NCBI RefSeq assembly: GCF_000513295.1
Contig: NC_023065.1
Coordinates: 1,984,001-2,048,000, forward strand
Origin: Magnetospirillum gryphiswaldense MSR-1 v2
Lineage (GTDB): Bacteria; Pseudomonadota; Alphaproteobacteria; Rhodospirillales; Magnetospirillaceae
Direction of reading: 5' to 3'
Length of the DNA stretch: 64,000 nt
In this document: positions 6,997 through 46,385 of the stretch, in pieces
Position numbering within the stretch: the stretch's first letter is position 1
Layout: every line of letters starts with the position of its first letter
Translations under genes and position numbers: made by a program
Notes under the pieces: generated by a model
Told to the model about the DNA's origin: nothing
Seen by the model: only the letters and a program-made list of their open reading frames with translations
Database searches by the model: none

Positions 6997-7059
6997 CCCC
7001 GACGGCATTAGGGATTACCTTCTGCCCCAATCGACGACTTGCCATGGGACGATTGCAAG

Positions 7060-7584
7060 ATGGATATCAAGGACCACATTCGCGGCATTCCGGACTTTCC
7101 CAAGCCCGGCATCCTGTTCTATGACATCTCGACCCTGTTGGCCCATCCTGATGCTTGGTCGGTGGCCCTGGGCCGCTTGGCCAACGATGTGCGCAAGCTC
7201 CAGCCCGACGTGCTGGCCGGCGTCGAATCCCGCGGCTTTCTGGTGGCGGCGCCGCTGGCGTTGAAGCTGGGCTGTGGCTTCGTCATGCTGCGCAAGAAGG
7301 GCAAGCTGCCGGGCAAGACCATCCGCCATGAATATTCGTTGGAATATGGCACCGACACCATCGAGATCCAGGAAGACGCCATCCAGCCGGGCCAGCGCGT
7401 GGTCATCTTGGACGATTTGCTGGCCACCGGCGGCACCATGTGTGCCGGGGTTGATTTGCTGCGCAAGGTGGGCGGCAACGTCACCGGCGCGGCGGCGATC
7501 ATTGAACTGAATTTCCTGCCCGGTCGCCAGCGTCTGTCGGACATGAACGTTCCGTGCTCGACCTTGGTAGCTTACGACGACTAA
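7060..7584 (+). CDS. apt: Adenine phosphoribosyltransferase
   Basis: A 174-residue purine-salvage enzyme converting adenine and PRPP to AMP. The PRPP-binding motif [13 protein letters not shown] and the family N-terminus [14 protein letters not shown] are present, as is GVESRGF. The ATG at 7060 is preferred over one 21 bases upstream because it gives the family-typical start. It stands 63 bases after the glycosyltransferase gene. Confidence 0.95.
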
Positions 7585-7641
7585 CACACAAAACGTGCGC
7601 GGGCCGGCTGTGGGGGCGGTCGGACAGGGGAAGCCGGACTG

Positions 7642-10593: not shown

Positions 10594-10792
10594 TTGTCGC
10601 CTAGTGTGGCGATTCCGAAGGTCGCATCTTCCTGCGAACATCGAAATCACCACACAATTCAATAAATTAGTGGCCTGCTTATCCCAGAATTCCGCCATGC
10701 GAATTTCTGGGGCAGGACACTGGCCGCTATTCCGCCATCGTGCCGGTTCGGGTATGGTCGCCGCCAGCCACCCATCCTTGCGGAAGACTCCC

Positions 10793-11599
10793 ATGCTGTC
10801 CTTGCGTTTGCTTCCCCTGGCTTTCCTGCTGATCGCCGCCCCGGCTTTGGCCCAAGCGCCGGCGCCGGTGGCCGCTCCGCCTCAGGACAAGCCGGCGGTC
10901 GAGGAGGAACGACCGGATTTCCAGCCGCTGCGTCCAGCGGAACCCGACGAGCCGGCGGCTGCGGCCCCCGCCCCGCCCCAACCCTCGACCCCGTCGACGG
11001 TGGCACCGGTCCTGCCGTCCCCGTCTCCGCCGCCGGTGGTCGTTCAGGTTCCGGTTGTCGAGACGGTGCCCCCCGCCGCCGGCCTGCTGCCGGCCTGGGC
11101 CATGGCCCTACTGCTGGTGACCGGGGCCATGCTGGCCGGGCTGTTCGGCATCACCGCCGCCCGCTCCATGCGTCGGGCCGAATTGGCCGAGCGTCGCCGT
11201 GCCACCGCCGCCTGCCTGGCCGCCGAATTGGAAACCCGTCGACTGGCCTTCGACGCCGTCCCCTTGCCGCCCAATGTCGATGCCGGCGTGTCGTTCGTGT
11301 CGGCGGTGATCTCCATGGCCGGCATCGATTGCGCTTTCCGCACCGCCCAGGGCAGCCTGTTCCTGCTGTCGCCGCAACTGGCCGCCCATATCTCGGTGCA
11401 TTATGCCGCCGTGCAGCGTGTGGCCGATTTCGTCAAGGGCCAAAGCCTGGCGGCGGCGGTGCGCATGTTGCAGGCCAACCGCCTGGGCGGCCATCCCTGC
11501 CCCGATGCCGGGGCCATGCGGGAAGCCCATGTGGAACTGGCCGCCGCCTTCCGTGGTCTGGACAAGGTGATCTTGTCGCTCAACGCCTTGCAGCGTTGA
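10793..11599 (+). CDS. Proline-rich secreted/membrane protein of unknown function
   Basis: A 268-residue protein beginning with a signal peptide (LRLLPLAFLLIAAPALAQ), then about 75 residues rich in Pro, Ala and Val, a transmembrane helix (WAMALLLVTGAMLAGLFGI) followed by a basic stretch, and a C-terminal helical domain of about 140 residues that I do not recognise. The architecture suggests an envelope-spanning protein with a periplasmic Pro-rich stalk and a cytoplasmic domain (inference). A longer frame from an ATG at 10754 would spoil the signal peptide. Confidence 0.6.
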   Translation: MLSLRLLPLAFLLIAAPALAQAPAPVAAPPQDKPAVEEERPDFQPLRPAEPDEPAAAAPAPPQPSTPSTVAPVLPSPSPPPVVVQVPVVETVPPAAGLLPAWAMALLLVTGAMLAGLFGITAARSMRRAELAERRRATAACLAAELETRRLAFDAVPLPPNVDAGVSFVSAVISMAGIDCAFRTAQGSLFLLSPQLAAHISVHYAAVQRVADFVKGQSLAAAVRMLQANRLGGHPCPDAGAMREAHVELAAAFRGLDKVILSLNALQR

Positions 11600-11655
11600 C
11601 GGTTTTCGCTTCGGGCGTAGACTGGGAGAAATAAAACCCAGGCTCCGGGGGAAGC

Positions 11656-13008
11656 ATGACCAAGACAAAGACTTTGCCGCTCAAGGTTCGCCCGGATTTC
11701 GTCTGGGGCGGGTCCACCTCGGCCTATCAGATCGAAGGGGCGGCGGCGGAAGATGGCCGAGGCCCCAGCATCTGGGACCTCCATTCGCGCACCAAGGGCC
11801 GCACCGCCAACGGCGATACCGGCGATGTCGCCTGCGACCATTATCACCGCTACCCCGAAGACGTGGCGCTGATGAAGCGCCTGGGCATCGACGCCTATCG
11901 CTTTTCGGTGTCGTGGCCCAGGGTGCTGCCGCGCGGACGCGGTGCCATCAACGACAAGGGCCTGGATTTCTATGACCGCCTGATCGACACGGTGCTGGAA
12001 GCCGACATCACCCCGTGGCTGTGCCTGTATCACTGGGATCTGCCGCAGCGCCTGCACGAGTTGGGCGGCTGGACCAACCGCGACGTGGCCGGCTGGTTCG
12101 CCGATTATTCCACCTTGGTGGTGCGGCGCTTCGGCGACCGGATCAAGCATTTCGCCACCTTCAACGAGCCCAATGTGTGCACCTTGTTCGGCTATGCCAT
12201 GAACTGGTGTGCCCCGGCAGCCGAGGACCGCGCCGCTTATTTCCCCGCCTGCCATCACGTCAATCTGGCCCATGGGGCGGCGGTGGATGTCATCCGCCAT
12301 TGGGTGCCCGACGCTTCCGTCGGCTGCGTTTACAATCTGCAACCCATCCACCCGGCGGATGAAAACTCCGCCGCCGATCGCCGCGCCGCCGAAATTTTGG
12401 ACGCCCATTGGAACCGGGTCTATGCCGACCCGCATATCCTGGGTCATTACCCGGCCCACGTCGCCGCCGATTACGAACCCTATGTGCAGGCCGGCGACAT
12501 GGCCCGCATCTGCCGTCGCCTGGATTGGGTGGGGATGAACCATTACGGCCCCATCTGGGCCAAGGACGATCCAAATTCCCAGCTTGGTTTCGCCTGGGCC
12601 GACGTCAAGGTGGCCGAGGCCCACCCGGAAATCGGCTGGGAAATATTCCCCGAGGCCTTCACCGACCAGTTGATGGAGACCCACCAGCGCTACGGCCTGC
12701 CCATCTACATCACCGAAAATGGTTGTGGTCGGGATGACGACAAGGAATTCGCCGATGCTGCGGGCCGGGTCGATGATTTCTATCGCATCTCGTACCTGAA
12801 GCTGTACACGGCGGCCATGACCACGGCGATCGAACAAGGTGCCGACATTCGCGGCTATTTCATCTGGTCGCTGTTCGATAATTTTGAATGGGGATCGGGC
12901 TACGGCAACCGCTTTGGCATCATCCGCGTCGACTTCCCCACCGGACGACGCACCCCCAAGGCGTCGTTCGACTGGTACGCCGAAACCATCCGGCAAAACC
13001 GAGGCTGA
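11656..13008 (+). CDS. GH1 family beta-glucosidase
   Basis: A 450-residue glycoside hydrolase family 1 enzyme hydrolysing terminal beta-glucosides. The acid/base Glu171 lies in TFNEPN and the nucleophile Glu354 in ITENG; the N-terminus FVWGGSTSAYQIEGAA and the C-terminal WSLFDNFEW are signatures of the family. There is no signal peptide, so it is cytoplasmic and would act on imported disaccharides. GGGGGAAGC immediately upstream of the ATG supplies a ribosome site. Confidence 0.95.
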   Translation: MTKTKTLPLKVRPDFVWGGSTSAYQIEGAAAEDGRGPSIWDLHSRTKGRTANGDTGDVACDHYHRYPEDVALMKRLGIDAYRFSVSWPRVLPRGRGAINDKGLDFYDRLIDTVLEADITPWLCLYHWDLPQRLHELGGWTNRDVAGWFADYSTLVVRRFGDRIKHFATFNEPNVCTLFGYAMNWCAPAAEDRAAYFPACHHVNLAHGAAVDVIRHWVPDASVGCVYNLQPIHPADENSAADRRAAEILDAHWNRVYADPHILGHYPAHVAADYEPYVQAGDMARICRRLDWVGMNHYGPIWAKDDPNSQLGFAWADVKVAEAHPEIGWEIFPEAFTDQLMETHQRYGLPIYITENGCGRDDDKEFADAAGRVDDFYRISYLKLYTAAMTTAIEQGADIRGYFIWSLFDNFEWGSGYGNRFGIIRVDFPTGRRTPKASFDWYAETIRQNRG

Positions 13009-33738: not shown

Positions 33739-34755
33739 ATGGCCATCTTCGCCTTGGTCGATTGCAACAATTTCTATGTATCCTGCGAGCGGGTGTTCAA
33801 TCCGGCCCTTGAGGGCAAGCCCGTCGTCGTTCTATCCAACAACGATGGCTGTGCGGTGGCGCGTTCCGCCGAAGCCAAGGCCATTGGTGTCCCGATGGGT
33901 GAGCCGGCGTTCAAGCTTCGGCATCTGGTCGAGCGGCACGGCCTGATCATGCAATCATCCAATTATGCCTTGTACGGCGACATGTCCGAGCGGGTGATGT
34001 CCGTGCTGGCCACCTTCGCCCCCGGCGCCGAAGTCTATTCCATCGACGAGTGCTTCCTTGATCTCGACGGGTTATCGGTGCCCGACCTTACCCAATGGTG
34101 CCAGCATGTTCGGGCGACGGTCAAACGCTGGACCGGCATCCCCGTATCGGTGGGGATCGGCGGCACCAAGACGCTGGCCAAGCTCGCCAACCGGCTGGCG
34201 AAGAAGTCGCCCAAGGCCAACGGGGTGCTTGACCTGGTCAGCCATCCCGCTTGGGTCGAGGTGGCGCTGAAGCGCACCCCGGTCGGCGAGGTTTGGGGCA
34301 TCGGGCGGCAATATGCCGGTCATTGTGGGGTTCACGGTATCCTTAGCGCCCATGACCTGACCCAGGCCGAGGACGGTTGGATCAGAAAGACGATGGGGAC
34401 GGTCGGCCTGCGAACAGTGATGGAGTTGCGCGGGGTGGCGGTCCACACCCTCGACACCGAACCGGCGGACAAACAGACAACCTGCTGCTCGCGTTCGTTC
34501 GCCGAAGCGGTCACGCATTATGACCATGTGCATGACGCCGTGTTGACCTTCGCCAGCCGCGCCGCCGAAAAAATCCGGGCTGATGGTCTGGTCGCCGGGG
34601 CTCTCCAGGTGTTCGCCCAGACCGACCGCTTCCGCCGCGATCAGCCCCAGTTCTCGTTGAATGCAATGGTGCGGCTGTCGCCCGCGACAGATTCGACGCC
34701 GCGCCTGATCGCGGCAGCTATCTCTGGGCTGCATTCGGCGTGGCGCGACGGCTAG
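33739..34755 (+). pseudogene. umuC: UmuC Y-family polymerase, 3'-truncated
   Basis: 338 residues against about 420-430 for full-length UmuC. The catalytic core is present: [27 protein letters not shown] and [15 protein letters not shown], then the little-finger domain up to [16 protein letters not shown], where it stops. The missing C-terminus normally continues ...YKKAGVM and carries clamp- and UmuD-interaction regions. The end abuts the stop of the next locus 20 bases away, indicating a rearrangement junction. Activity is doubtful. Confidence 0.85.
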
Positions 34756-34775
34756 TGAATACAAAATTGTCACTG

Positions 34776-36884
34776 CTACGCCCCCCATTCACGGATCAGC
34801 ACGACCATGACCGACCTGGCCAGCCGGCCGATGAGGCTGGAGTTTTCGGCCTCGATGGAGATTGTCCCGATTTCCTCATGGGCGGGCGGCGGGCCTTCGA
34901 GGGCGATGGTCACCCGGGTGATGGCGCCGTCGGGGATGACGGTCTGACCCGAGACCCGTGCGGGAATGTCGCCGCCATGGACGGAGGCCAGCGCCCCGTC
35001 GGGCAGGGTCTTGGCGGGTGACGGATCGATCCGCTGTACGCGCCCGGGCCGGGACGCGCTTTCCATCGCGTGGGGGGAGAAGGTGGCGCCCGCGCCGCCC
35101 TGGATACGGGCAAGATCGTCCTCGGCCACATAGGCGACCGCGATCGGGGCGGAATTTTCCAGGACAAGCCCGAGCTTCTGGCGGGGTGAAAGCCAGTCGC
35201 CGGGCTGCATGTCCGGCAGGATATCGAGGATTCGGCCCTCCATGGGGGCGAGAATAGCGAGGCGATTTGCTTCCGCTTCCAGGACGGCCAGCTCGGCCTG
35301 GGCCTTGCGCAGATCCTCTTGCACGATGCCGGCACGGTCGCGCAGCAAAGGATCGAGGGTGGCGGCTTCAAACTCGGCGGTCTTGCCGTCGATGCGGGCC
35401 TGGGCTACCGCCTTGCGCAAGGCGATGTCGGGGGCGGTGAAGCTCATCAGCACGTCGCCCGGCTTCACCGCCTGCCCATGGGAAACGTGGATTGCTTCCA
35501 GCCGGGCCGGAAAGGGCAAATGGAGGGCGGCGGACCGGCTTCCCTTCATCACCGCTGGCGCGCTCACACTGCCCTGCCAGGGGATGAGGGCGAGCAGGAT
35601 GAGGGCTCCAAGCGTCCCCAGCGTCCAGCGGATACGTGTTCCCGCCATGATGGTCGTCTTCACTTTCTCCCATTCCCGTACCTCGGCCCAGATGGGCCGG
35701 GCAACGAACCACCAGATTTCCACCACGAACAGCATGATGCCCACGGCCTTGATGAAGAAGTGGTAGACCATGACGGCGATACCCAGGAACAGCACCAGGC
35801 GATAGATCCACACCGCCACGGCAAAGGCGATCAGCGCCCGGCGCCTGCCTGCGGGCAGAGGCTCCGGCGGCGGCGTGCCCAGTCCGAACAGCACGTTGCG
35901 CAGCCACCATCGTGCCATGGCGAAGGAACGCGGGTGCAGGTTCGGCATCTCCATCGCGTCCATGGCGATGAAATAGCCGTCGAAGCGCATGAAGGGACTG
36001 AGGTTGATGGCCAGCGACGAGATCCAGGTCAGCGCCGCCAGCACGAAGGTCGCCTGTTTCCATGGCCCCTCGGGCAGGAAAGCCCAAGCCAGGGTTGCCC
36101 AGGCAGCGATGATGAGTTCGGCCAGGATACCCGCCGAGCCGACCTGAAGGCGCTTCTTGCGCTCGGGCAGCATCCAGGTGTCGTTGACGTCGGTGTAGAG
36201 CATGGGCCACAGCACCAGGAAGGCCACCCCCATGCTGGGCACGCGGCAGCCATGGTTCTTGGCGGTGTAGGCATGGGCAAGCTCGTGGATCACCTTCACC
36301 ACCGTGAGCGCGATGCCATAGGACACCAGCCCCGATAGCGAGAAGGTGTCCACCAGGGTGGCGACGAACAGATCCCATTGCCGTCCCGCCAGTATCAGAC
36401 CGATGGTCAGGGCCATCATGGTCGTCACCTGGAACCCGTGCGATCCCAGCCAGCGCACCAACGGCAGTGTCCGGTCGAGCCAGTGATCGGGCCGGACCAG
36501 GGGGATACGGAAGAACAGGTAATGGTGCATCAGCCAGTGGAACCAGGACTGCTTCTCGGCTTCGGCCCGCGACACCAGCCTTTGCGTGTCTTGGGGACCT
36601 GCCGGTCGGGTCAATTGGTTGGCGACCAGAAACTCGGCCACGCCCTTTACGTCGTCGTCCGTGGGATGAAGCGTGGTTTCGGCCGATACCGCCTCGGCGA
36701 TTTTGGCGGGCGTCTCGGCCCACCAGCGGCTAAGGATCTCGAAGGCCGGCCAGGAAATGCGGAAAAAGCGGTTGCGGACCGGGTCGCGGATGGTCCAGGA
36801 CGGCGAGCCGTCGGCTCCGGCGGGGCCGGGATGCAAGGACAGCTCGGTGCGTAGCGTCGGCAGAATACCCATCTCTGTTGTCAT
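34776..36884 (-). CDS. PqqD-like / M50 site-2 protease / HlyD fusion membrane protein
   Basis: A 702-residue multi-domain protein. Residues about 28-95 resemble a PqqD-type winged helix (RNRFFRISWPAFEILSRWW ... DDVKGVAEFLVANQLT). The membrane part has the M50 zinc-protease motif HELAHA (200-205) and the second metal motif FMRFDGY, plus several TM helices up to about 425. A HlyD-like periplasmic adaptor (lipoyl/coiled-coil/barrel) fills about 435-700. It belongs to the minus-strand secretion locus with two HlyD adaptors and a TolC-like protein. It may process and hand over a secreted substrate (inference). Confidence 0.8.
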   Translation of the reverse strand: MTTEMGILPTLRTELSLHPGPAGADGSPSWTIRDPVRNRFFRISWPAFEILSRWWAETPAKIAEAVSAETTLHPTDDDVKGVAEFLVANQLTRPAGPQDTQRLVSRAEAEKQSWFHWLMHHYLFFRIPLVRPDHWLDRTLPLVRWLGSHGFQVTTMMALTIGLILAGRQWDLFVATLVDTFSLSGLVSYGIALTVVKVIHELAHAYTAKNHGCRVPSMGVAFLVLWPMLYTDVNDTWMLPERKKRLQVGSAGILAELIIAAWATLAWAFLPEGPWKQATFVLAALTWISSLAINLSPFMRFDGYFIAMDAMEMPNLHPRSFAMARWWLRNVLFGLGTPPPEPLPAGRRRALIAFAVAVWIYRLVLFLGIAVMVYHFFIKAVGIMLFVVEIWWFVARPIWAEVREWEKVKTTIMAGTRIRWTLGTLGALILLALIPWQGSVSAPAVMKGSRSAALHLPFPARLEAIHVSHGQAVKPGDVLMSFTAPDIALRKAVAQARIDGKTAEFEAATLDPLLRDRAGIVQEDLRKAQAELAVLEAEANRLAILAPMEGRILDILPDMQPGDWLSPRQKLGLVLENSAPIAVAYVAEDDLARIQGGAGATFSPHAMESASRPGRVQRIDPSPAKTLPDGALASVHGGDIPARVSGQTVIPDGAITRVTIALEGPPPAHEEIGTISIEAENSSLIGRLARSVMVVLIREWGA

Positions 36885-36910
36885 TCCCGCCCCCCCATGG
36901 AGACACGGAG

Positions 36911-37204
36911 ATGAGAAGGATCTGGGCAGTCACCACCGCGTTTCTGGCCTTCACCTCCTCGGCCATGGCCGAATCCGATTGCGAATTGGCAAAAGCCGCC
37001 AAGGATATCGCCATCGAAGTCGAACGCTTCAGCACACCGGGCCAGCGTCGCGGCATCGAGGACGTGGCACGCCTGCTGGTTCCGTCCCCCTGCAAGACCA
37101 GCCCGGCTCCCCGCCTGGTTCTGGAGAACGTCGAGCTTGGACTGCTCGCGGAGGACTGGCGCCGAGGCACCGAGGAACTGGAGCAAAGGCGGCTCGACCG
37201 CTGA
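36911..37204 (+). CDS. Small periplasmic protein
   Basis: 97 residues with a clear signal peptide (MRRIWAVTTAFLAFTSSAMA). The mature part is helical with two Cys (SDCELAK, PSPCKTS) that could form a disulfide. It lies on the opposite strand between the M50-HlyD and HlyD genes and has no recognised family. The ATG at 36911 is used because it begins the signal peptide, although the GGAG directly adjoining it is too close for an ideal ribosome site. Confidence 0.5.
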   Translation: MRRIWAVTTAFLAFTSSAMAESDCELAKAAKDIAIEVERFSTPGQRRGIEDVARLLVPSPCKTSPAPRLVLENVELGLLAEDWRRGTEELEQRRLDR

Positions 37205-37209
37205 CATCG

Positions 37210-38496
37210 CTACCATCCAAGCCATTGCCTGATCACGGCCAGCGGTCGACGGAACAGCCAATAGACCAGGGAGACCCGGTCGCCATCCAGGCGGGCAGTG
37301 CCCTTCAATCCGATGCGGGGGATGGCGTCGTCATGGGCAATCTTCGCCCGTACCCGATGGGCCAACACCCCGTCGGGCTTCAAGGTCGCCTCGAAAGCCA
37401 CATAGGACAGCGTGGCCACGACGGGTGACAGCGGGGCGGTGTTGAGGAACAGGACCACTTTCCCGCCCGGCTCCAACGGGATCAAATCAGCGGGCGCCAG
37501 CCAGGCTTCCACCTCCACCTGACGAGGATCGGCCACCGCTAGCACCTTTTCGCCCACGCTGACCGGGCGGCCTATCCATTCGCTGGGATCGTCCATCACC
37601 GCGAGACCGTCGCGGGGCGACTTGACCTGGGCGCGGGTCATCAGGTCTTCGAGCTGGGCGCGTTCGGCCTGTTTCTCCTCCACCTTGGCCTTGAGGACCG
37701 CCCAGCCGGCCTTGGCCTTGGGGTCGAAGAAGGCCTGCTGGGTGGCTTGGTCCAGTTCAGCCTTGGCCGTATCCAGGACCTTGGCCGCCACCTCCAGCTT
37801 GCCGGCGATGGTGGTGCGGTCCAGTTCGAACAGAACGTCACCCGCCACGACACTCTGGTTGGGCTGGGCGCGGACCAATTCGATCACGCCTTCCAGGGGG
37901 GCGCGGATCACCGCCGGGTCCGAGGGGACGATCTCGGCTGAGGCCAGGACTGACAGGCGGACGGGAAAGATCAGGGCCAGGAGGATTCCCGCCGCCACTA
38001 TCCGCTTCCAGCGTGGCAGGCTGGTCAGGCGGTGGCGCCACTGGGACAACGGCGCGGATTGGTGCTTGGCCGCCCAGGCGAAGGCGTAGGCATCGGTCAG
38101 CCGCTGGACGATCGCCGTGGTGCCTTCGTCCCAATCCTCGTCGCGGGCCAGAAGCAGCGTGCCCAGGCGCTTGCCGTCGGCATCCTTCAGCGGCAGGAAC
38201 AATGGCTTGGGCGGCAGCCAATCCGCCCATTCCTCGCGCTCGGCGGAAGAAATTTCCTTGCCGGCCTCATGGAGCTTGAACATCCGTTGCAAGAACAAGG
38301 TGAAGGGCGCGTTCTCCTCCACCGAGGACACTCCCGAAACCGCCACCACCCCCTTGTCCGCCATATGCAGCGCCGCCTGATGGTATTCAGCCAGGGCGCG
38401 GGTGTCGTTGACCATGACGAAAGCGAGCTGGATGGTGGTGCGCGCATTCAGCGCTTGCTCCTCGATCCCCAGCAGGGTGACGAGCGCCTCGCTCAC
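37210..38496 (-). CDS. HlyD-family adaptor with an N-terminal cytoplasmic domain
   Basis: 428 residues. The first about 155 look like a GAF-type cytoplasmic domain (ARTTIQLAFVMVNDTRALAE, PLFLPLKDADGKRLGTLLLA). One transmembrane helix follows (IVAAGILLALIFPVRLSVLA), then a HlyD adaptor (VIRAPLEGVIELVRAQPNQS, a coiled-coil hairpin, VGEKVLAVADPRQVEVEAWL). The GTG start overlaps the upstream stop (GTGA). An adaptor with a sensory-type cytoplasmic domain is atypical and suggests regulated or signal-coupled export. Confidence 0.75.
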   Translation of the reverse strand: MSEALVTLLGIEEQALNARTTIQLAFVMVNDTRALAEYHQAALHMADKGVVAVSGVSSVEENAPFTLFLQRMFKLHEAGKEISSAEREEWADWLPPKPLFLPLKDADGKRLGTLLLARDEDWDEGTTAIVQRLTDAYAFAWAAKHQSAPLSQWRHRLTSLPRWKRIVAAGILLALIFPVRLSVLASAEIVPSDPAVIRAPLEGVIELVRAQPNQSVVAGDVLFELDRTTIAGKLEVAAKVLDTAKAELDQATQQAFFDPKAKAGWAVLKAKVEEKQAERAQLEDLMTRAQVKSPRDGLAVMDDPSEWIGRPVSVGEKVLAVADPRQVEVEAWLAPADLIPLEPGGKVVLFLNTAPLSPVVATLSYVAFEATLKPDGVLAHRVRAKIAHDDAIPRIGLKGTARLDGDRVSLVYWLFRRPLAVIRQWLGW

Positions 38497-39227
38497 TGCG
38501 GGGCCATGCTGATTTTTCCCGTCATTCCCGCCATCAATTCGGGGAAGTCGCCCTTGATCTCGGCGGTGATCTTGACCGAATGGCTGACCGCATCGACCTT
38601 GGCGCCCATGCGGGCGATCCGGCCCGGATAAGTCTTCCTGGTCTCGTCCACCATGATCTGAAGAGAGGTGCCGGGCTTCAAGGTCGTCACCGCCGACGAG
38701 GGTACGATGAATTCGGCGTTCAGCACGGAATCATCCAGAATCTCCAGGATGGCCTGGCCCACCTGGACGTATTGATGGGCGCGGGCCTTCTGCTCCACCA
38801 CCCTGCCCGCGAACGGCGCGGAAATACCGCATTTGGAAGCCACGGCACGGGCCGAGTTAAGCTTGGCCTGCGCCACCGCCGCGTCCCAGCCCGATTTTTC
38901 CGCCTCCAGCGTGCCGGTGGAGTTGAGCTCCAGCAGCCGCTTGTACACTGCCTTGGACTTCTCGGCGGCGGCAAAAACGGCACTGGCCTCATCCACCAGA
39001 GCCCGCTGGATGGTGCAATCGAAGGCCACCAGTTGCTGGCCTTCCTTAAAGCGCTCGCCTTCCTTGACGGTGATACGGTCGATCTTGGCGGGCAGCTCCG
39101 CCGACAGGGTGGTGTAATTCACCGCGACCAGTTGCACGGGAATCACCGGCTCCTGCGCCTCGGCCCCGAAGGACAGAAGGCACAGGAGGGGCGCCACCCA
39201 GCGCTTGAGGGCAATGGGGCTAATCAC
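38493..39227 (-). CDS. Periplasmic HlyD/RND-type adaptor
   Basis: 244 residues with a signal peptide (APLLCLLSFGAEAQ) and the membrane-fusion layout: lipoyl half (ITVKEGERFKEGQQLVAFDC), a short coiled-coil hairpin, second lipoyl half (ISAPFAGRVVEQKARAHQYV) and beta-barrel (GTSLQIMVDETRKTYPGRI). It would bridge an inner-membrane component to the TolC-like protein encoded upstream. It starts at a GTG two bases after the TolC-like stop and is coupled to the next gene by GTGA. Confidence 0.8.
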   Translation of the reverse strand: MISPIALKRWVAPLLCLLSFGAEAQEPVIPVQLVAVNYTTLSAELPAKIDRITVKEGERFKEGQQLVAFDCTIQRALVDEASAVFAAAEKSKAVYKRLLELNSTGTLEAEKSGWDAAVAQAKLNSARAVASKCGISAPFAGRVVEQKARAHQYVQVGQAILEILDDSVLNAEFIVPSSAVTTLKPGTSLQIMVDETRKTYPGRIARMGAKVDAVSHSVKITAEIKGDFPELMAGMTGKISMAPQ

Positions 39228-39228
39228 G

Positions 39229-40860
39229 TCAGTGGCTATCGGCCTGCTCGGCCAGGGCGGCGATCTTGCGGCCCAGCCAGAATAACCCGTCGCGCACCAC
39301 GTCCTCCCGCTCCGGCTCGGCAGCGACGGCCTGTACCTCAGGCGCAGTCACCGGCGCCGGATCGGCCTTCACCGCCGGCGGCATGGAAAGGACGATGGCG
39401 CCGGACAAGCCGTCCAGCGAGTGCGAGGCCACCTTTTCCGGCACCGGATCGGCGCCGATGGTCGATTGCAGCTTGCCGTAGGAGGATTGCATCTGGGCGT
39501 AGGTCTGGAAGCGGCGGAGTTCGGCGGCGATGGCCGAGGTCTCGGTGCTGATGCGCTCGATCTCGTTGACGGTGCCGCCGCGGCTCTGGTTGCCGGCGGC
39601 ATCGGCCAGGCGCTTCTCGATGCCCCACAGCTTGTCGGCCCGCTCGAACTGCTTGGCGGCGCTGGCGAATTGGTGGGACACCACATGGACCTGGGCCAGA
39701 ACCGCCATGCGCAGCGCGATGCGCTTGGCCTCGGCCAGCTTCTCGGCACTTTCCGCATGGGCCATGCGATCCGGCGCCGCCAGCAGGTTGATCAGATTCC
39801 AGGTGACCTTGGTGCCCACATCGTTCCAGCGGTTGTCCACCAGAAAGGAATTGGAATCATACTGGCGCGAGAACGACACGGTGATGCCGGGCAGAAGCTT
39901 CAGGATCTCCTTGTGGGTGTCGTCGAGGGCGATGCGGCTTTGGTAATCCTGTTCGCGCAGATCCGGGTTGTTGATCATGGCGGCCTGTTCCATGGCGCCG
40001 ATGTCCATGGGCCATTCGGGCACGCTCATGCCGCCATTGGCGGGCACATCCAGCTTGAAATCGCTGCCGGGCGCCACGTTGATCAGGGCGGCCAGCTCGG
40101 CCTTGGCCGAGGTCAGTTCCTGGTCGATGGCCTCCAACTGGCGGATGCTTTCCAGCAGGGTCTTCTGGATGCGCAGGCTTTCGATGGGGTTCTTCAGGCG
40201 CTCGCCCTCGACCTTTTCCGAATCCTTCAGCGCCTTCTCGGCCGAGGTGATGGTGTCGGTCACCTTGGCCTTCAAGGTTTGTGCGGCGGCGGCGCGCCAG
40301 AAGGTGAAGCGCACCTCCTGGACCAGATTATTGATGGTCTTGCGCCGCCTCTCACTCGCGATCAGGGCGCGGTCGGCGTTCTGGTGCGCCGTGAAATAGG
40401 ACACGCCGAAATCCAGGATGTTCCAGGTCAGCCCCAGGTCACTGGTGATGGAGAAGCGATCCGCCGAATAGCTGGGGTTCGAGGTGCTGGTGGTCTGGGT
40501 ATAAAGATCGCGCGACCGGGTGGCGTTGGGCTCGGATCGCTCGGTATAGCCGGCATTGGCGGTCAGCTTGGGCAGCAGGTCGAAGCGGTCCAGGCTGGTC
40601 TGCCCCAAGGCCAGCGCCTCTTCCATCATCTTGGCGCGCTTGTCCAGATTGTACTTCAGCACGCGGGCCACCGCATCGGCCAGGGTCAGCGGCTTGGCTA
40701 TCACCTCCTGGCCTTCAAACATGGCTGCGCGGTCGGCCTTGGCCTTGGCGGAGAACTCATCGGCCGTGAACGGCGTCGGCGTCACGGCGCAGGCGCTCAG
40801 CAGGGCGACGGTGGAAACAGCGGCCAGCAGGCGGGCCATGCGAGTGGTAACGACGGTCAT
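39229..40860 (-). CDS. TolC-family outer-membrane efflux lipoprotein
   Basis: A 543-residue outer-membrane factor. The N-terminus has a lipobox (VALLSACAV), the body has two TolC-type repeats of long helices with barrel strands (ADRFSITSDLGLTWNILDFG and TKVTWNLINLLAAPDRMAHA), and a C-terminal tail of about 80 residues is Pro/Ala/Val-rich. It forms the exit duct for the secretion system encoded here, and is first in line after the repeat protein. Confidence 0.85.
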   Translation of the reverse strand: MTVVTTRMARLLAAVSTVALLSACAVTPTPFTADEFSAKAKADRAAMFEGQEVIAKPLTLADAVARVLKYNLDKRAKMMEEALALGQTSLDRFDLLPKLTANAGYTERSEPNATRSRDLYTQTTSTSNPSYSADRFSITSDLGLTWNILDFGVSYFTAHQNADRALIASERRRKTINNLVQEVRFTFWRAAAAQTLKAKVTDTITSAEKALKDSEKVEGERLKNPIESLRIQKTLLESIRQLEAIDQELTSAKAELAALINVAPGSDFKLDVPANGGMSVPEWPMDIGAMEQAAMINNPDLREQDYQSRIALDDTHKEILKLLPGITVSFSRQYDSNSFLVDNRWNDVGTKVTWNLINLLAAPDRMAHAESAEKLAEAKRIALRMAVLAQVHVVSHQFASAAKQFERADKLWGIEKRLADAAGNQSRGGTVNEIERISTETSAIAAELRRFQTYAQMQSSYGKLQSTIGADPVPEKVASHSLDGLSGAIVLSMPPAVKADPAPVTAPEVQAVAAEPEREDVVRDGLFWLGRKIAALAEQADSH

Positions 40861-40883
40861 AACGAAGTGATCCCCTTGAATAC

Positions 40884-41708
40884 TTATGCGTTGCGGGCCA
40901 TGCCGCGCGCCGCAGCCAGCAATTGGGCCTGACGGGCGCCGGACAGGCGGTTCGCCATGCGCAGTTCTTCCTGGAAGGTCGGCTTGCCGGCGAAGGTCTG
41001 GCCCCCAAAGGTCTTACTCGGGCCGAAATCCGACAGCTTGATGACCGGAGCAGCCGGGTCGGGCGCCAGTTCGCCCTGCTGGCCGGGCGCCTGCGGCACC
41101 TCGCCCTGCGGCGGCTGGTTCTCGGAGGCCGGCGGCGCGTTGTTCTGAATGACGCCGCCACCGCCGCGGACCCGAATCTCGAAGGTCGTGCCCACCTCGT
41201 TACCGGCATTGTCACGGGCAACCACCACCACCGACAGGGCGCCGTTAAAGCCTTCTGGCGCTTCACCGACAAAAACCCCCTTGGCAGAATCGAAGGAAAG
41301 CCATGCCGGCAACGGGCGCCCATCGGTCAACTTGGCGGCCAAGGTGATGTTGGCCTCAGCGCTGGTATGCCCAAAGGCATCGATCGGAATGGAGAAATTG
41401 ACCATCCGGCTTTCCGGCAGAACCGCAGGGATTCCCTTTTGCACGAAAAGCGCACCGTCTCGGACGGCGTTGACCGAGGGTGTTCCCACGGCCACTTGGA
41501 AACCGTTGCCGCCGGTCGTGCTCAGGTGCCGCATCGCCTGGAAATTGCCCTGAACCCCTTGAGCGAATTCACCCGCAGGTGCCCGCACGGCGGTGACGAG
41601 GGAAGCACCGGTATCGCCTGTCTGAGCAATCGGAGCCTGGATTTTCACCGAGACGGCCTCCCCCGTCCTTGGCGGGGGGGGCGGAGACGACGACGACGAC
41701 GACGACAT
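40884..41708 (-). CDS. C-terminal part of the DUF4347 repeat protein (separate frame)
   Basis: 274 residues in a different frame from the N-terminal part. From an ATG it reads seven Ser, then PPPPPRTGEAVSVKIQAP, then a putative cadherin/Ig-like domain (PIDAFGHTSAEANITLAAKL ... LPAWLSFDSAKGVFVGEAPE), a Pro/Gln linker and a short helical C-terminus (RMANRLSGARQAQLLAAARG). The Ig-like domain (DGRPLPAWLSFD) is typical of large exported surface proteins. It is most likely the tail of the 41645-43525 protein, split by a frame break at simple repeats. Confidence 0.7.
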   Translation of the reverse strand: MSSSSSSSPPPPPRTGEAVSVKIQAPIAQTGDTGASLVTAVRAPAGEFAQGVQGNFQAMRHLSTTGGNGFQVAVGTPSVNAVRDGALFVQKGIPAVLPESRMVNFSIPIDAFGHTSAEANITLAAKLTDGRPLPAWLSFDSAKGVFVGEAPEGFNGALSVVVVARDNAGNEVGTTFEIRVRGGGGVIQNNAPPASENQPPQGEVPQAPGQQGELAPDPAAPVIKLSDFGPSKTFGGQTFAGKPTFQEELRMANRLSGARQAQLLAAARGMARNA

Positions 41709-43525
41709 GACGCGGTGGAGGGCGGGATGTATCTCCACAGCTCTCTACCATTGGAGCCTTCAGAGGCCGAAAAATACAGGGTGCCGTTCACGTAGATCAT
41801 ATTGGTAGGGGAAGAGCCGGTTGCGCCGGGCCAGATATCCGCGACCCTGCTGGGCGCGTTGATCCCGTCGTATTTCCACAACTCTAGATCGCCGTTGCCT
41901 TCGCCGGCCGAAAAATACAGGGTGCCGTTCGCGTTGGTTATAAATTCTATGGTACCGGGACTTCCGGCGGGGCCGATATTCGCGACCATGCTGGGCGTGT
42001 TGGTCCCGTCGTATTTCCACAGCTCATTACCGTTGGTGCCGTCGCTGGCCGAAAAATACAAGGTGCCGTTCACGTTGGTCAGATATGACAGGCTAGAGTG
42101 GCCTGCGCCGGGGTTGATATCCGCGACCATGCTGGGCGCGTTGACCCCGTCGTATTTCCACAGCTCTTGACCGTTGGTGCCGTCATTGGCCGCAAAATAC
42201 AGGGTGCCGTTCACGTTGATCATATTGCCAGGGGAAGAGCTGTTTGCGCCGGCGCGGATATCCGCGACCCGGCTGGGCGCGTTGGTCCCGTCGTATTTCC
42301 ACAGCTCACTACCATTGGTGCCGTCGTCGGCCCTAAAATACAGGGTGCCGTTCACGTTGGTCAGATATTCTGGGGTAGAGCTGTTTGCGCCGGGGTTGAT
42401 ATCCGCGACCATGCTGGGCGCGTTGACCCCGTCGTATTTCCACAGCTCTTTACCGTTGGTGCCGTCAGTGGCCCCAAAATACAGGGTGCCGTTCACGTTG
42501 GTCATATATTCTGGCACAGAGCTGCTTGCGCCGGGGTTGATATTCGCGACCATGCTGGGCGCGTTGGTCCCGTCATATTTCCACAGCTCTTGACCGGTGG
42601 TGCCGTCAGTGGCCGCAAAATACAGGGTGCCGTTCACGTTGGCCAAATTGTTTGCGCTAGAGCTGTTAGCGCCGGGGTTGATATTTGCGACCATGCTGGG
42701 CGCGTTGATCCTGTCGTATTTCCACAGCTCAATACCGTTGGTGCCGTCATTGGCCCTAAAATACAGGGTGCCGTTCACGTTGACCGGCATACCTACGTTG
42801 CTACTATTTACGCCAGGGTTGATATCCGCGACCATTTCGGGATTGGCAAGCAATCCGTCAACCCCCGCCAGTGCCGCCGCATGGAAATACTGGGACGCAT
42901 CCACATCGCCGGCTTCCAGGTGCCAGTCGCCGCCGAACGCCGCATTGCCGGTGGAATCGGCGGACGCGGCAACCGAACGCCCCGTGATGTCGGACAGGTA
43001 AGCCAGCAGGGCATTCCCCGCACTATCGCCCGCCACGCCGCAAGCCAGCAGGTCGATGCGCCCGCCCTCGGTGATTTGTGCCCCCAGCCCCCTCATGAAC
43101 GTTTGCAACGCGCCGTCGCCGGCAATTCCCGCCAGCGACACGCCGTGATCCGCTGTCAGCTCGAACGCGCCGTTTGCGCCGTGCGAGGCCAGGGCGATGG
43201 ACGAAGCCTGCTGCCCGTCCAGCGCATGGGAAACGCGGGCCAGGATGGCATCCAGGCTGTCGGCGTGGGCGTCATAGCGCACCACCAGCACATCATCCTT
43301 GGCCGCAAGCGCCAGATCAGCACCGTCGGCGACGCGCGAGGATAGCAGCAGAACGCGCGGATTGGCCGTCACCGCGACCGGCATGACGGCATCCGCCCCA
43401 TCCGAATGCGCGTCCACCGCCTCGGCCATGGCCGCGCCGTCGAACATGATGCGCGGTTCAAGCGCCATCATCGGGGCAAAGACCCGACCCGTTGATTGAC
43501 CGGATTTGTGCAAAACCTTGCCCAT
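41645..43525 (-). CDS. DUF4347-domain surface protein with ELW repeats (N-terminal part)
   Basis: 626 residues in this frame. The start MGKVLHKSGQS leads to the conserved MALEPRIMFDGAA motif and a DUF4347 domain at about 57-225 (RVLLLSSRVADG, IALASHGANG, GGRIDLLACGVAGD). Eight 47-residue repeats with NVNGTLYF and ELWKYDGTNAPS fill 231-603, probably beta-propeller blades. The frame then runs into an Arg-rich tail (RRRRRRLRPPRQGRGR) and stops, whereas the other frame gives a Ser/Pro linker and an Ig-like domain. It is the likely substrate of the adjacent TolC/HlyD system (inference). Confidence 0.75.
   Translation of the reverse strand: MGKVLHKSGQSTGRVFAPMMALEPRIMFDGAAMAEAVDAHSDGADAVMPVAVTANPRVLLLSSRVADGADLALAAKDDVLVVRYDAHADSLDAILARVSHALDGQQASSIALASHGANGAFELTADHGVSLAGIAGDGALQTFMRGLGAQITEGGRIDLLACGVAGDSAGNALLAYLSDITGRSVAASADSTGNAAFGGDWHLEAGDVDASQYFHAAALAGVDGLLANPEMVADINPGVNSSNVGMPVNVNGTLYFRANDGTNGIELWKYDRINAPSMVANINPGANSSSANNLANVNGTLYFAATDGTTGQELWKYDGTNAPSMVANINPGASSSVPEYMTNVNGTLYFGATDGTNGKELWKYDGVNAPSMVADINPGANSSTPEYLTNVNGTLYFRADDGTNGSELWKYDGTNAPSRVADIRAGANSSSPGNMINVNGTLYFAANDGTNGQELWKYDGVNAPSMVADINPGAGHSSLSYLTNVNGTLYFSASDGTNGNELWKYDGTNTPSMVANIGPAGSPGTIEFITNANGTLYFSAGEGNGDLELWKYDGINAPSRVADIWPGATGSSPTNMIYVNGTLYFSASEGSNGRELWRYIPPSTASCRRRRRRLRPPRQGRGRPSR
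41674..41708. repeat. Simple-sequence tracts at the frame break: G8 and (GAC)7
   Basis: Eight G at 41674-41681 and seven GAC units at 41686-41706 lie exactly where the reading frame of the DUF4347 protein breaks. One extra base in the homopolymer would join the two frames. Confidence 0.85.
41717..42835 (-). repeat. Eight tandem 141-bp repeats (47 residues each)
   Basis: The repeat start recurs every 141 bases from 42835 down to 41848 with no length change across all eight copies; only the last is trimmed at its end. Conserved core residues are N-G-T-L-Y-F, D-G-T-N-G and E-L-W-K-Y-D-G. Copies differ mainly in the eight-residue loop after NPGANSS. Confidence 0.9.
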
Positions 43526-43562
43526 GCCGCTTCTCGCCCTCGACCCATCATCGCCGTTGGAT

Positions 43563-43591
43563 ATAGTATTGTTCGAAATAGGTGCCTGCAA
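43563..43591 (-). promoter_or_regulatory. Sigma70-type promoter of the DUF4347 gene
   Basis: On the minus strand TTGCAG (43591-43586) and TACTAT (43568-43563) are separated by 17 bases; transcription would start about 30 bases before the ATG at 43525. The CTGAC array lies about 30 bases further upstream, a suitable place for an activator. Confidence 0.55.
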
Positions 43592-43620
43592 TGAAAAACA
43601 GTGTAAAAACATGATGTTAG

Positions 43621-43664
43621 CTGATGAGCCTGACCTTCCCTGACCGAAGCTGACATTGGCTGAC
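43621..43664. repeat. 10-bp-phased CTGAC direct repeats
   Basis: CTGAC begins at 43630, 43640, 43650 and 43660, exactly ten bases apart, with a related CTGAT at 43621. Direct repeats about one helical turn apart are the usual recognition pattern of OmpR/PhoB-type regulators, and such a regulator is encoded at 45696. The array is in the divergent intergenic region between the secretion locus and the kinase. Confidence 0.8.
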
Positions 43665-43710
43665 ACGATTTCATTCAAAGGATGTTTTTTGAGGCAGATG
43701 GGATAATCAG

Positions 43711-45705
43711 ATGTTGTCTTGCCGCCGAAAGGCTCTGAGCGTGATTTTACAGGTCCTGGCCATCCTTGGGCTGCTGGCGGTACTTGTGGATTCTGCCCAG
43801 GCTTCCTCTCCCGTGGTGCTCGACGGTCGGGCCGGCGACGTGGACGGGCGCGGCCATATGGCGATCTTCCGCGATCCCGAGGGCACCCGGACATTGGACG
43901 AGATCATCGGGATTGACGCGGCGGGAAGGTTCAAGCCGATCCCCGGCAATGTGGGGCTTGGCTATACTCCGGACACCATCTGGCTGCGCATGGATCTGGT
44001 CCTGCCGGAAGGCGCCCCGGAGAGGTGGCTACTTGAAGTCATGCCGTCCTATCTCGACCACCTCGACCTTTACCTTCTGCCCCCCGACGGCGTGCGGCAC
44101 GGGGCGACGGCCGGCGACAGGCTCCCGTTCTCGGCCCGAACGGAGGAATACCGGAACTTTCTTTTCCCGCTCCACATCCCGGCGGGAAAAAGCCGTCTCT
44201 ATCTGAGGGTCAAGAGCACCAGCGCGATGACCGTGCTGCCCCGCTTCTGGCAGCCTTCCGCTTTCGAGCACGCCGTCAGCGGCGAGTCCGCCTTGCTCGG
44301 CCTCTATTACGGCGCCCTTCTGACGGTGACGCTCCTCAACCTGATCGGCTTCGCCATCAACCGCCAGAGCATTTACCTGACCTATTCGGGCTACGTGTCA
44401 TTGATCGGCGTGCATTTTTTTGCCATCGACGGATTGCTGGCGCAATTCGCGCTGCCCGATCACCCGCTGATCGCCAACCAGATGCTGGGGGCCACGATGG
44501 GACTGGGGGCGATCTTCGGCTTTCGCTTCTATGCCCAGGTTCTTCGGCTGCCGGGCCGTTTCCCCTGGTCTGATCGGGTGATCTGGGGCATGGCCCTATT
44601 GGGCGGCGCCACGGCAATATCCGCGTTTACGCCTTACTACTCTGCCTTTGCGCCGCTGCTATTGCTCGCGATGATCGCGTCACTTCTTGTCTTTCTGAAA
44701 CCCCTGATCTCCCTTTGGCGCAATCGGGATGCCGAAAGCCGGCTGATCGCGCTCGCCTATACATTTTACGCCGGGCTGCTTTTTACGACGCTGACGGCCG
44801 CCCTTGGCCTTACCGAGCCGACGAAGCTGTCTCTCATAAGCTCGCTGTGCGGAAGCGTGATTCATTTCGCGATCCTGCATTCAAGCCTTTTCCTGCGCGC
44901 TCATCGCGCTCAGCGGGACAAACTCGTCGCCGAAGCCGTTGCTGAAAGAGCGCGGCAGGAAGGAAGCATGGAAAGGGAAATGAGGATCGAGCGCGAGCGT
45001 CTGCTGGACATGATCGGCCACGAAATTCTTACCCCGGTGGCTGTCATCGATGCGGCGAACCAGACGCTTCGGGTCCTTGATACCGATACGTCGCCCGATC
45101 GCGAAAAGCGCTATGACCGGATCGGGGGTGCGGTCGAGCGGTTGAAGGCCATGCTGGATTTGGCCACTCATCGCCAGAACCTGGAGGCCGATTACAGCGA
45201 ACCCGCCCGCCATCCGATCAATATCGAAGGGCTGATGCAGGAAAGTGTCGAGCTTCTTGGTCCCGAGGGGGAAAAGCGGGTAGCGGTTCGCTCCGGCACC
45301 ACACTTCCTTCGGTCCAGGCGGACGAGCGCATGCTCCGTTTCGCTCTCCTCAATCTGCTGGACAACGCGGTGAAGTATTCCCCCCGCAATTCGCCCATCG
45401 AAGTGGACGTTTCGCCTCGTTTCCATGACGGCCGAAGCGGCCTGTGCTGGTCGATCGTCAACGATGGGGCGGCAATTCCGCGCGACATCGAAACCACGAT
45501 TTTCGACAAATATGTTCGCGGCAGCGAGGAAGCCGGCCAAGCCGGCATGGGATTGGGGCTTTACCTGACCCGGTACATCTTCGAACGACATGGGGGATGG
45601 GTGCAACTGGAGGAAAATACGAAGGGAAGAATCTGCTTCCTGGCTTGGCTACCGACCGATACGGAACAGGCCGGAGCGAAGCAGGAGGCCGGCCAATGCG
45701 AATAG
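43711..45705 (+). CDS. 7TMR-DISM sensor histidine kinase
   Basis: 664 residues. A signal peptide (LAVLVDSAQA) is followed by an extracellular 7TMR-DISMED2-like beta domain (about 30-190), seven transmembrane helices (about 195-390) and a kinase core: His437 in DMIGHEILTPVAVIDAAN, N-box NLLDNAVKYSP, and GMGLGLYL. DISMED2 domains are thought to bind carbohydrates or other small ligands. The regulator gene overlaps its end by ten bases, so the two form a two-component pair. Confidence 0.88.
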   Translation: MLSCRRKALSVILQVLAILGLLAVLVDSAQASSPVVLDGRAGDVDGRGHMAIFRDPEGTRTLDEIIGIDAAGRFKPIPGNVGLGYTPDTIWLRMDLVLPEGAPERWLLEVMPSYLDHLDLYLLPPDGVRHGATAGDRLPFSARTEEYRNFLFPLHIPAGKSRLYLRVKSTSAMTVLPRFWQPSAFEHAVSGESALLGLYYGALLTVTLLNLIGFAINRQSIYLTYSGYVSLIGVHFFAIDGLLAQFALPDHPLIANQMLGATMGLGAIFGFRFYAQVLRLPGRFPWSDRVIWGMALLGGATAISAFTPYYSAFAPLLLLAMIASLLVFLKPLISLWRNRDAESRLIALAYTFYAGLLFTTLTAALGLTEPTKLSLISSLCGSVIHFAILHSSLFLRAHRAQRDKLVAEAVAERARQEGSMEREMRIERERLLDMIGHEILTPVAVIDAANQTLRVLDTDTSPDREKRYDRIGGAVERLKAMLDLATHRQNLEADYSEPARHPINIEGLMQESVELLGPEGEKRVAVRSGTTLPSVQADERMLRFALLNLLDNAVKYSPRNSPIEVDVSPRFHDGRSGLCWSIVNDGAAIPRDIETTIFDKYVRGSEEAGQAGMGLGLYLTRYIFERHGGWVQLEENTKGRICFLAWLPTDTEQAGAKQEAGQCE

Positions 45706-46385
45706 TGCTGGTCGAGGACAATTCCGACTTCCGCGAAGAAGTGCAGTTCCATTTGCAGCGGGCCGGACACGAGGTTTTCATCGCCGCCGATGGCGCCGGC
45801 CTCGACCAGGTGCTGGCGGTGCATCACATCGAGATTGCCGTCCTTGACCTGGGGCTTCCCGGCGAGGACGGCCTGTCCATCACCCACCGCCTTCGCATGT
45901 CTCATCCCGAAATCCGGATCTTGATGCTCACCGCACGATCCAGCCAGCATCACCGGATCAGCGGATTGGAAAAAGGGGCCGATTCCTACCTGACCAAGCC
46001 GGTCGACATGCGGGAATTGTGTGCCGTCATCGAGAGCATCCGCAGGCGCATTTCGCCAGCCGTGGCCGACCATCGCGCGCCGGGCTGGACCCTGAGCCTG
46101 TCCACCATGACGATCATGACGCCCAAGGGTGAACGGATCACCTTGACCCCGACCGAAATGCTTCTGCTGCGCCCGCTTGCGGAAGCCGCGCCGGACATCG
46201 TCAGCCGACAGCAATTCGCCAAGGCGCTCGGGCATCGCGAGGAGGATTACGATTACCGGCGTCTTGAGGCCGTCATCAGTCGCTTGCGAAGAAAAATCGC
46301 GACGTCGGATGAGGAAAGCTCTGTGATCAAGCCGGCTCGTGGTAGAGGCTATATCTTCGCCGCGCCAATAACGGTGATCCCCTAG
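45696..46385 (+). CDS. OmpR/PhoB-type response regulator
   Basis: 229 residues: a receiver with Asp51 in AVLDLGLPGEDG, the acidic pair in LVEDNSD and Lys in YLTKPVD, then a winged-helix DNA-binding domain (LTPTEMLLLRPLAEAAPDIV, VISRLRRKI, ARGRGYIF). The ATG at 45696 has AGGAGG seven bases upstream, inside the end of the kinase gene. It may bind the CTGAC direct repeats at 43621-43664 (inference). Confidence 0.9.
   Translation: MRIVLVEDNSDFREEVQFHLQRAGHEVFIAADGAGLDQVLAVHHIEIAVLDLGLPGEDGLSITHRLRMSHPEIRILMLTARSSQHHRISGLEKGADSYLTKPVDMRELCAVIESIRRRISPAVADHRAPGWTLSLSTMTIMTPKGERITLTPTEMLLLRPLAEAAPDIVSRQQFAKALGHREEDYDYRRLEAVISRLRRKIATSDEESSVIKPARGRGYIFAAPITVIP

Follow-up and report, generated by a model that had tools for sequence, protein, structure and literature searches.

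A likely M50-HlyD exporter without its own ABC or SecA gene in Magnetospirillum gryphiswaldense MSR-1, and a proposed address label of its substrates

The window analysed here, a stretch of 64,000 nucleotides (nt) from Magnetospirillum gryphiswaldense MSR-1 (contig NC_023065.1, positions 1,984,001 to 2,048,000 of the forward strand), contains five genes that are likely to encode a dedicated tripartite exporter of type I-like design, in which a PqqD-like/M50/HlyD fusion and a GAF-like/HlyD protein would replace the ATP-binding cassette (ABC) transporter, and labelled large repeat proteins would be the substrates. A preliminary description of this stretch had taken it for an export system without a pump, and in this main conclusion it was right. 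An M50-HlyD export class with SecA has already been predicted, as far as the available part of the source goes (PMC4452313); the likely substrates and the address label, LEPRIMFDGAA in the window, are newly proposed here from sequence comparison.

Five genes and a shared label

The features of the gene set are as follows (positions count from the first letter of the window; ORF, open reading frame; TM, transmembrane).

41645-43525, minus strand: N-terminal ORF of the putative repeat-protein substrate, with label, DUF4347 domain and ELWxxDGT repeats (ORF scan, Pfam/NCBIfam).
43430-43462, minus strand: label LEPRIMFDGAA, proposed export address (common motif and genome-wide link to the machine).
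42851-43354, minus strand: DUF4347 domain (Pfam; conservation in 12 sequences).
40884-41738, minus strand: C-terminal ORF of the putative substrate, in a different frame, with He_PIG and C-terminal motif (ORF scan, Pfam).
40953-40988, minus strand: C-terminal motif GKPTFQEELRMA, second conserved substrate element (motif counts in relatives).
39229-40860, minus strand: TolC-family outer membrane lipoprotein with lipobox LLSAC (Pfam OEP, E 1.1e-27; N-terminus).
38493-39227, minus strand: soluble periplasmic HlyD-type adaptor with leader-like N-terminus (Pfam HlyD_3, E 9e-17; TIGR01730, 114.5 bits).
37210-38496, minus strand: cytoplasmic GAF-like domain, TM helix and periplasmic HlyD adaptor (Pfam HlyD; AlphaFold pLDDT 94).
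34776-36884, minus strand: fusion of PqqD-like domain, M50 site-2 protease with about seven TM helices and periplasmic HlyD part, 702 amino acids (aa) (Pfam, model, hydropathy, alignments).
36585-36884, minus strand: PqqD-like N-terminal domain, residues 1-100 (model and alignment to the Pfam PqqD region of a sister protein).
36273-36287, minus strand: HExxH zinc-protease motif, residues 200-204 (invariant in relatives).
35718-35720, minus strand: E389, an acid in the middle of predicted TM helix 6 (SecA-less type only).
34839-35576, minus strand: periplasmic HlyD part of the fusion, residues 437-682 (Pfam; model; top Foldseek match MacA, E 7.7e-14).

As had been described, the five genes run in one direction, and the ORF, Pfam and NCBIfam scans place all of them on the minus strand. 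They follow each other in reading direction as split repeat protein, TolC, periplasmic HlyD, GAF-like/HlyD and M50-HlyD, and because the successive gaps are 23, 1, -4 and 325 nt, the set is operon-like. A domain scan of the genes of the operon found no ABC, resistance-nodulation-division (RND), major facilitator superfamily (MFS) or SecA gene. The N-terminal substrate ORF is open from 43894 (41645-43894), with the ATG at 43525 as the presumed likely start, and matches DUF4347 (E 6.6e-29) and ELWxxDGT repeats (E 4.7e-128). The repeat protein and its DUF4347 domain are present as the preliminary description stated, but not as a single gene: its coding sequence falls into two ORFs that lie in different frames, and the frame change (about 41650-41740) is present in both chromosomal copies of the locus. 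The copy of the repeat protein on plasmid pMSR-1 reads in frame across that junction, and the label was not detected on it.

Aligned substrate N-termini show a basic stretch followed by [M/L]-A-L-E-[PQ]-R-x-M-F-D-G-A-A. A label model (34 positions, built on 22 labels) was sought genome-wide regardless of position, and in each genome its matches were compared with those of the M50 profile. In a sample of the family, 32 of 55 genomes had the label, 31 the machine and 30 both (Fisher's test, 4.6e-12); the three genomes that break the pattern are one with a partial M50 and two with the label alone, whose assemblies comprise 540 and 920 contigs. The phylum sample gave the label (E <= 1e-3) in 62 and the machine in 78 of 398 genomes, with 61 sharing both (Fisher's test, 6e-55, relatedness uncorrected; 11 of 89 genomes were set aside from the machine count, their sole match being weaker, E 1e-75 to 1e-95), and its sole label-only genome is 57% complete. 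At the same threshold all eight labelled genomes of the class sample had the machine, which occurs in 13 of the 289 genomes overall (Fisher's test, 1.2e-12). At E <= 0.01 the label was found in 12 of the 289; three of these match only positions 15-24 of the model and have no M50-HlyD, and the other nine all belong to the 13 machine genomes.

The same association bears on the idea that the genes form a signalling or stress module, whose GAF-like and M50 proteins would sense and cleave regulators while the repeat protein would stand beside them by chance. The operon is adjoined by genes for a histidine kinase and a response regulator (the kinase is of the 7TMR-DISM type), and M50 proteases often function in signalling; yet the link between label and machine over 398 genomes, the TolC and HlyD partners, and the labelled giants that share the operon in several classes and on an Escherichia coli plasmid leave this idea with next to no credence.

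Directly upstream of the machine genes an ORF was found in 68 of 84 loci, with the label in frame in 22. The C-terminal motif in its strict form occurs in 43 of these 68 ORFs vs. 0 of 232 other genes of the same loci, and in its loose form in 56 vs. 15; since the patterns were written after viewing the sequences, these counts are descriptive and not a test. By comparison with type I secretion, the motif is a candidate export signal of the substrates. The label region shows no signal-peptide-like hydrophobic core: its top 12-residue mean hydropathy is 0.72-1.69 in 16 substrates, as against 2.12 and 2.23 in the leaders of the window HlyD and TolC proteins, the only two leader comparators. Against the NCBIfam model LEPR-XLL (NF012209, cut-off 17) the window ORF scores 14.0 bits in the ORF scan and 19.5 in the genome search. 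In the open-licence PMC literature (preprints excluded, few subscription papers) we found no tie of LEPR labels to M50-HlyD machines. The earlier proposal that the repeat protein is the probable substrate gains from these data, through the common N- and C-terminal elements and the genome-wide co-occurrence of label and machine.

The S-H-G and Cys motifs of DUF4347 are invariant in 12 sequences. Their spacing resembles that of clan CD cysteine peptidases, so that the domain may cleave the exported protein itself; among solved structures the DUF4347 profile had seven weak matches, with no peptidase among them (designed TIM barrels, 9qpe, which is a DUF4347 domain-containing protein, E 0.00096, and one unrelated entry). 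The label might be just the conserved start of DUF4347, inherited with the domain and without a targeting role, and such S-H-G and Cys motifs do follow it in many proteins. We hold this to be very improbable: the labelled proteins of four loci (L044, L062, L065 and L067) have no S-H-G/Cys motif pair, at least by a crude pattern, and a cognate form of the label heads the giant proteins of the SecA type described below.

Conservation of the set and its copies in MSR-1

An M50 profile scan of named genomes gave 563 relatives, and 80 loci were kept, from alpha-, beta- and gammaproteobacteria and Magnetococcales. The GAF-HlyD gene immediately precedes M50-HlyD in 75 of the 80; among the five exceptions four begin at a contig edge, and one (L083) has space for the gene but lacks it. 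TolC and HlyD were both detected upstream in 35 of the 80 loci (many loci are cut, and single-query searches overlook divergent copies), TolC being first in 35 of 35. An adjacent pump in every homologous locus, which would have refuted the preliminary description, was not found. In many betaproteobacteria the substrate gene stands between HlyD and GAF-HlyD. One E. coli plasmid carries the complete set with a 4457-aa immunoglobulin-like protein that starts ...FALESRQLFDGAA, followed by a DUF4347-like stretch; the M50 gene also occurs on further plasmids of E. coli, Citrobacter and Hafnia, and in 24 of 5426 complete E. coli genomes. Judged from these sequences, the five-gene set, common to many Proteobacteria, looks like an exporter of very large surface proteins that bear a short label.

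Clustering of the neighbouring genes gave ten clusters that reach at least 5 of 84 loci: M50/GAF-HlyD, substrates, TolC, HlyD, ABC (10 loci, a raw count with no background rate), a protein of about 107 aa (12 loci), a kinase-like cluster (13 loci; sampled members resemble PAS/kinase sensors), two antisense clusters interpreted as shadow ORFs, and a further cluster from 10 loci with a median length of 231 aa. The protein of about 107 aa has a leader-like start and lies directly after the M50 gene (e.g., L017 11421-11783).

Five M50-HlyD genes are present in the MSR-1 genome. Besides the window copy there is one in a 99% duplicate at 2.54 Mb, and the other three are more divergent (52-60% identity). 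Positions 34753-46021 of the window, i.e., the exporter, the kinase and most of the response regulator, are duplicated at about 2.54 Mb with 99.0% identity over 11,269 nt (the end at 46021 is the limit of the sequence compared from the second copy). Plasmid pMSR-1 encodes an M50 protein identical to that of the window within a related copy of the exporter. Each of the five machine loci is adjoined by a labelled protein of the LEPRxMFDGAA type, one locus by two, and three more labelled proteins (loci L020, L021 and L022) have no whole M50-HlyD gene nearby.

Some further features of these loci were noted. A degenerate sixth M50 copy with one in-frame TGA (genome positions 4104505-4105098) lies near a 2907-aa labelled protein (L022 8952-17675), and the substrate gene of another MSR-1 locus (L019) also appears broken. 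In the window, a UmuC/Y-family polymerase ORF (33739-34755, 338 aa) stops right at the duplication boundary; a longer version of 425 aa lies near the other duplicate copy (L016 4399-5676). A plus-strand ORF with a leader-like start (36878-37204) occupies, in antisense, the gap between GAF-like/HlyD and M50-HlyD, and is annotated as a hypothetical protein on pMSR-1.

Domain make-up, a sister type with SecA and the search for a motor

In the M50-HlyD fusion, Pfam detects Peptidase_M50 at residues 191-270 (E 1.3e-9) and HlyD_3 at 544-625 (E 1.8e-9). H200, E201, H204 and D302 are invariant in all 52 aligned members, and HExxH is kept in 9 of 9 proteins of the SecA type; the protease motif is intact and the site is predicted to be active. 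No PqqD match was obtained by Pfam, neither on the window protein (E <= 0.1) nor in the 52 aligned members (E <= 0.05). In a protein of the sister family, the one member scanned, Pfam finds PqqD at 37-101 (E 1.6e-6), and this region aligns with the N-terminus of the window protein; by hhalign the M50-HlyD family matches the nine sister proteins over residues 9-701 (E 5.9e-74, 25% identity). A PqqD-like N-terminal domain is therefore supported through transitive profile homology only, and of the 702-residue fusion first described, the M50 and HlyD parts were found directly by Pfam and the PqqD part by way of the sister profile. The predicted structure of residues 1-100 has three strands followed by three helices.

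The model of the fusion has a predicted local distance difference test score (pLDDT) of 87 and a predicted template modelling score (pTM) of 0.66, with a MacA-like HlyD part; the AlphaFold model of the GAF-like/HlyD protein has a pLDDT of 94 and a pTM of 0.63. Pfam GAF was found in 5 of 42 aligned GAF-HlyD members and not in the window protein itself. The 50 Foldseek matches listed for both models are adaptors only, the HlyD parts matching MacA, MexA/AcrA and EmrA, and are therefore uninformative on the PqqD, M50 and GAF-like parts. The NCBIfam model daptide_HExxH covers residues 63-393 of M50-HlyD with 163.5 bits, under its equivalog cut-off of 300.

A sister type of this machine was sampled from plasmids (nine of twelve full-length matches, each with PqqD, M50 and HlyD parts, the PqqD part checked by Pfam on one). 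A SecA gene adjoins the machine in eight of the nine loci, Thalassospira being without it (one SecA was checked by Pfam, E 1e-103), and the window GAF-HlyD protein finds counterparts in 9 of 9 (E 1.6e-8 to 3.2e-14). SecA matches were obtained in 119 plasmid records; among the 40 listed, 12 are of the sister type and the others mostly annotated secA. The start of the giant neighbour is readable in eight sister loci (Methylosinus, Mesorhizobium, Pontibrevibacter, Pseudosulfitobacter, Thalassospira, Rhodobacteraceae M382, Sinorhizobium and Pseudohalocynthiibacter), and all eight show [LMIY]EPRxLL[SNA]AD near it (three were read by eye, as the first label pattern missed them). In M382 the labelled gene begins about 25 kb from the machine, with broken-frame ORFs on the same strand between. 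The giant neighbours reach 10,500-12,900 aa in three loci. All five sister labels tested score 27.8-37.7 bits against LEPR-XLL, and three of five match Planc_extracel (PF07595), all under its cut-off. Five of eight annotated sister loci (L111, L118, L121, L123 and L124) have a small gene for DUF3467 between the machine and the gene of the giant protein; neighbour clustering revealed no DUF3467-like small conserved gene upstream of the SecA-less machines.

The two label forms mostly go with the two machine types, and from their sequences we infer that each machine recognises its cognate label. Since all eight readable sister giants begin with LEPR-XLL or a one-letter variant of it, labels of the LEPR kind probably serve as the address for exporters of this class. 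A link to Planc_extracel is suggested by the weak profile matches together with the available part of PMC4452313. There, Kamneva, Poudel & Ward (2015) describe type I secretion-like loci with a secondary SecA_DEAD in several phyla, propose that SecA acts as the ATPase and that M50 may form a membrane pore, and call the broader role unknown; they found no ABC homologue in those loci, and in the available part of the text no substrate is named and LEPR is not mentioned. To the same extent, their loci resemble the window type in the make-up of the HlyD/M50 and GAF/HlyD proteins and in having no ABC gene, and differ in the secondary SecA, which was not found here.

For the window type we searched 86 loci, i.e., the 80 surveyed and six from MSR-1 (two of which are the same place). 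SecA, sought with E. coli and sister queries, was found in none of them vs. 8 of 9 sister loci, and AcrB-like and EmrB-like proteins gave no match in the 86. ABC genes occur in 11 of the 80 loci, all past the M50 gene and none upstream within the locus sequence, in line with the absence of a pump gene reported for the window. With no pump gene upstream of or inside the operon in the 80 loci, the loss of a neighbouring pump was rejected. Another conserved neighbour as motor was also rejected, ABC being the only motor-like one among the clusters examined (the 231-aa cluster of 10 loci excluded). A private SecA elsewhere in the genome was rejected too: in MSR-1 a single SecA exceeds the cut-off and a second match stays below it (E 8e-4), and each of the 13 class-sample machine genomes has one match at E <= 1e-20. 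With no private motor gene found, the window type would be a SecA-less and ABC-less variant of the predicted export system.

A type I ABC transporter encoded elsewhere could still energise the system, with the M50 protein as a processing accessory only. ABC exporters are indeed present in MSR-1 and in nearly all relatives: in the family, the LssB model has matches at E <= 1e-100 in 54 of 55 genomes, and many full-length ABC exporters lie below the cut-off. However, PrtD exceeds its cut-off in 9 of 31 machine genomes vs. 12 of 24 others and LssB in 1 of 31 vs. 1 of 24, and MSR-1 has neither over the cut-off, so neither of these two curated type I ABC families follows the distribution of the machine in the 55 genomes (HlyB-type was not searched); moreover, ABC genes near the machine always lie beyond M50, and the operon brings its own TolC and adaptors. 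Since PrtD and LssB do not track the machine, yet other ABC exporters abound, a distant ABC transporter is unlikely rather than excluded, and we rate it as improbable.

Proposed mechanism and relation to known systems

The exporter that we consider likely would work as follows. Its substrates would be large repeat proteins with an N-terminal LE[PQS]Rx[M/V/L][F/Y]DGA and usually a C-terminal element of the GRxx[LF]xxQL type. The cytoplasmic PqqD-like and/or GAF-like domains would bind the label; the M50 part with its roughly seven TM helices would hold it, and the M50 site would trim it or gate the release. The chain would then cross an adaptor assembly of two anchored HlyD proteins and a soluble one and leave through TolC. 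The most likely motor would be the housekeeping SecA, perhaps with SecYEG, because the sister type uses a private SecA copy.

Several observations weigh against this exporter and its label. The label model was drawn from machine neighbours, which may limit how well it detects labels of a different form, and relatives among the genomes do not count as independent. The label was not detected in 17 of the 78 machine genomes of the phylum sample, nor in 4 of the 13 of the class sample (E <= 0.01). The upstream ORF extends past the available sequence in 36 of the 68 loci, where the label is unreadable, and 10 of the 68 have no label, several of them being spurious or fragment ORFs. On a Phyllobacterium plasmid (L110) the GAF-HlyD/M50-HlyD pair stands beside an unlabelled protein (7791-12029, annotated with a HrpK domain). 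In another locus (L068) a protein of the LEPR-XLL form (6889-7767, truncated at the end of the contig) follows a SecA-less-type machine at a distance of 1.3 kb; label form and machine type are therefore not strictly paired. Finally, MSR-1 holds other ABC exporters, so that a distant one is possible by genomics alone.

The proton gradient is an alternative motor, for which E389 in TM helix 6 would be the candidate residue: it is present in 52 of 52 SecA-less members and 0 of 9 SecA-type members, while the two types have the zinc ligands and a number of charged residues in common. This is a correlation from two clades and serves as a pointer to a candidate residue. It would fit a reading in which the M50 fusion is itself inner-membrane gate and motor, driven by protons via E389, and reads an LExR address found also on the LEPR-XLL and Planc_extracel giants; we regard this reading as doubtful. 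Somewhat less unlikely, though still only a possibility to be kept in mind, is export in two steps, with the label as a non-classical Sec signal, housekeeping SecA/SecYEG transport to the periplasm, removal of the label by M50 in the membrane, and HlyD/TolC serving the outer step only. The SecA genes of eight of the nine sister loci, the one SecA over the cut-off in MSR-1 and the adaptor and TolC genes agree with it, and M50 proteases cut within membranes; on the other hand, the label region has no hydrophobic core of signal-peptide strength (by the two comparators), and the PqqD-like and GAF-like domains suggest a recognition step in the cytoplasm.

In type I secretion, substrates pass through assemblies such as HlyB-HlyD-TolC, and LapBCE exports giant adhesins. 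The proposed exporter shares with these the TolC and HlyD adaptors, very large repeat substrates and a conserved C-terminal element, and differs in having no ABC transporter, a protease fused to an adaptor and an N-terminal label. The RND, MFS and MacAB pumps (AcrAB, EmrAB and MacAB with TolC) have the adaptor fold in common with the window HlyD parts, but the scanned loci of the window type contain no counterpart of the AcrB or EmrB proteins of the RND and MFS pumps. LEPR-XLL and Planc_extracel resemble the window label as short N-terminal LExR motifs heading giant proteins; the window form, LE[PQS]RxMFDGAA, unlike LEPR-XLL itself, falls under or barely above the NF012209 cut-off. The daptide MpaP and YydH-LiaK metalloproteases (NF041824 and NF058609), which act on peptides, align with the M50 part of the window fusion and the region preceding it, but none of its HlyD domain is covered by their models (379 and 246 positions).

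Type I-like export is defined by an ABC, RND or MFS motor, and a widespread exporter without these or a private SecA would, if true, change that rule. It would also give a function to the orphan motif LEPR-XLL, and perhaps to Planc_extracel, which head some of the largest bacterial proteins, and the question is testable in the genetically tractable M. gryphiswaldense.

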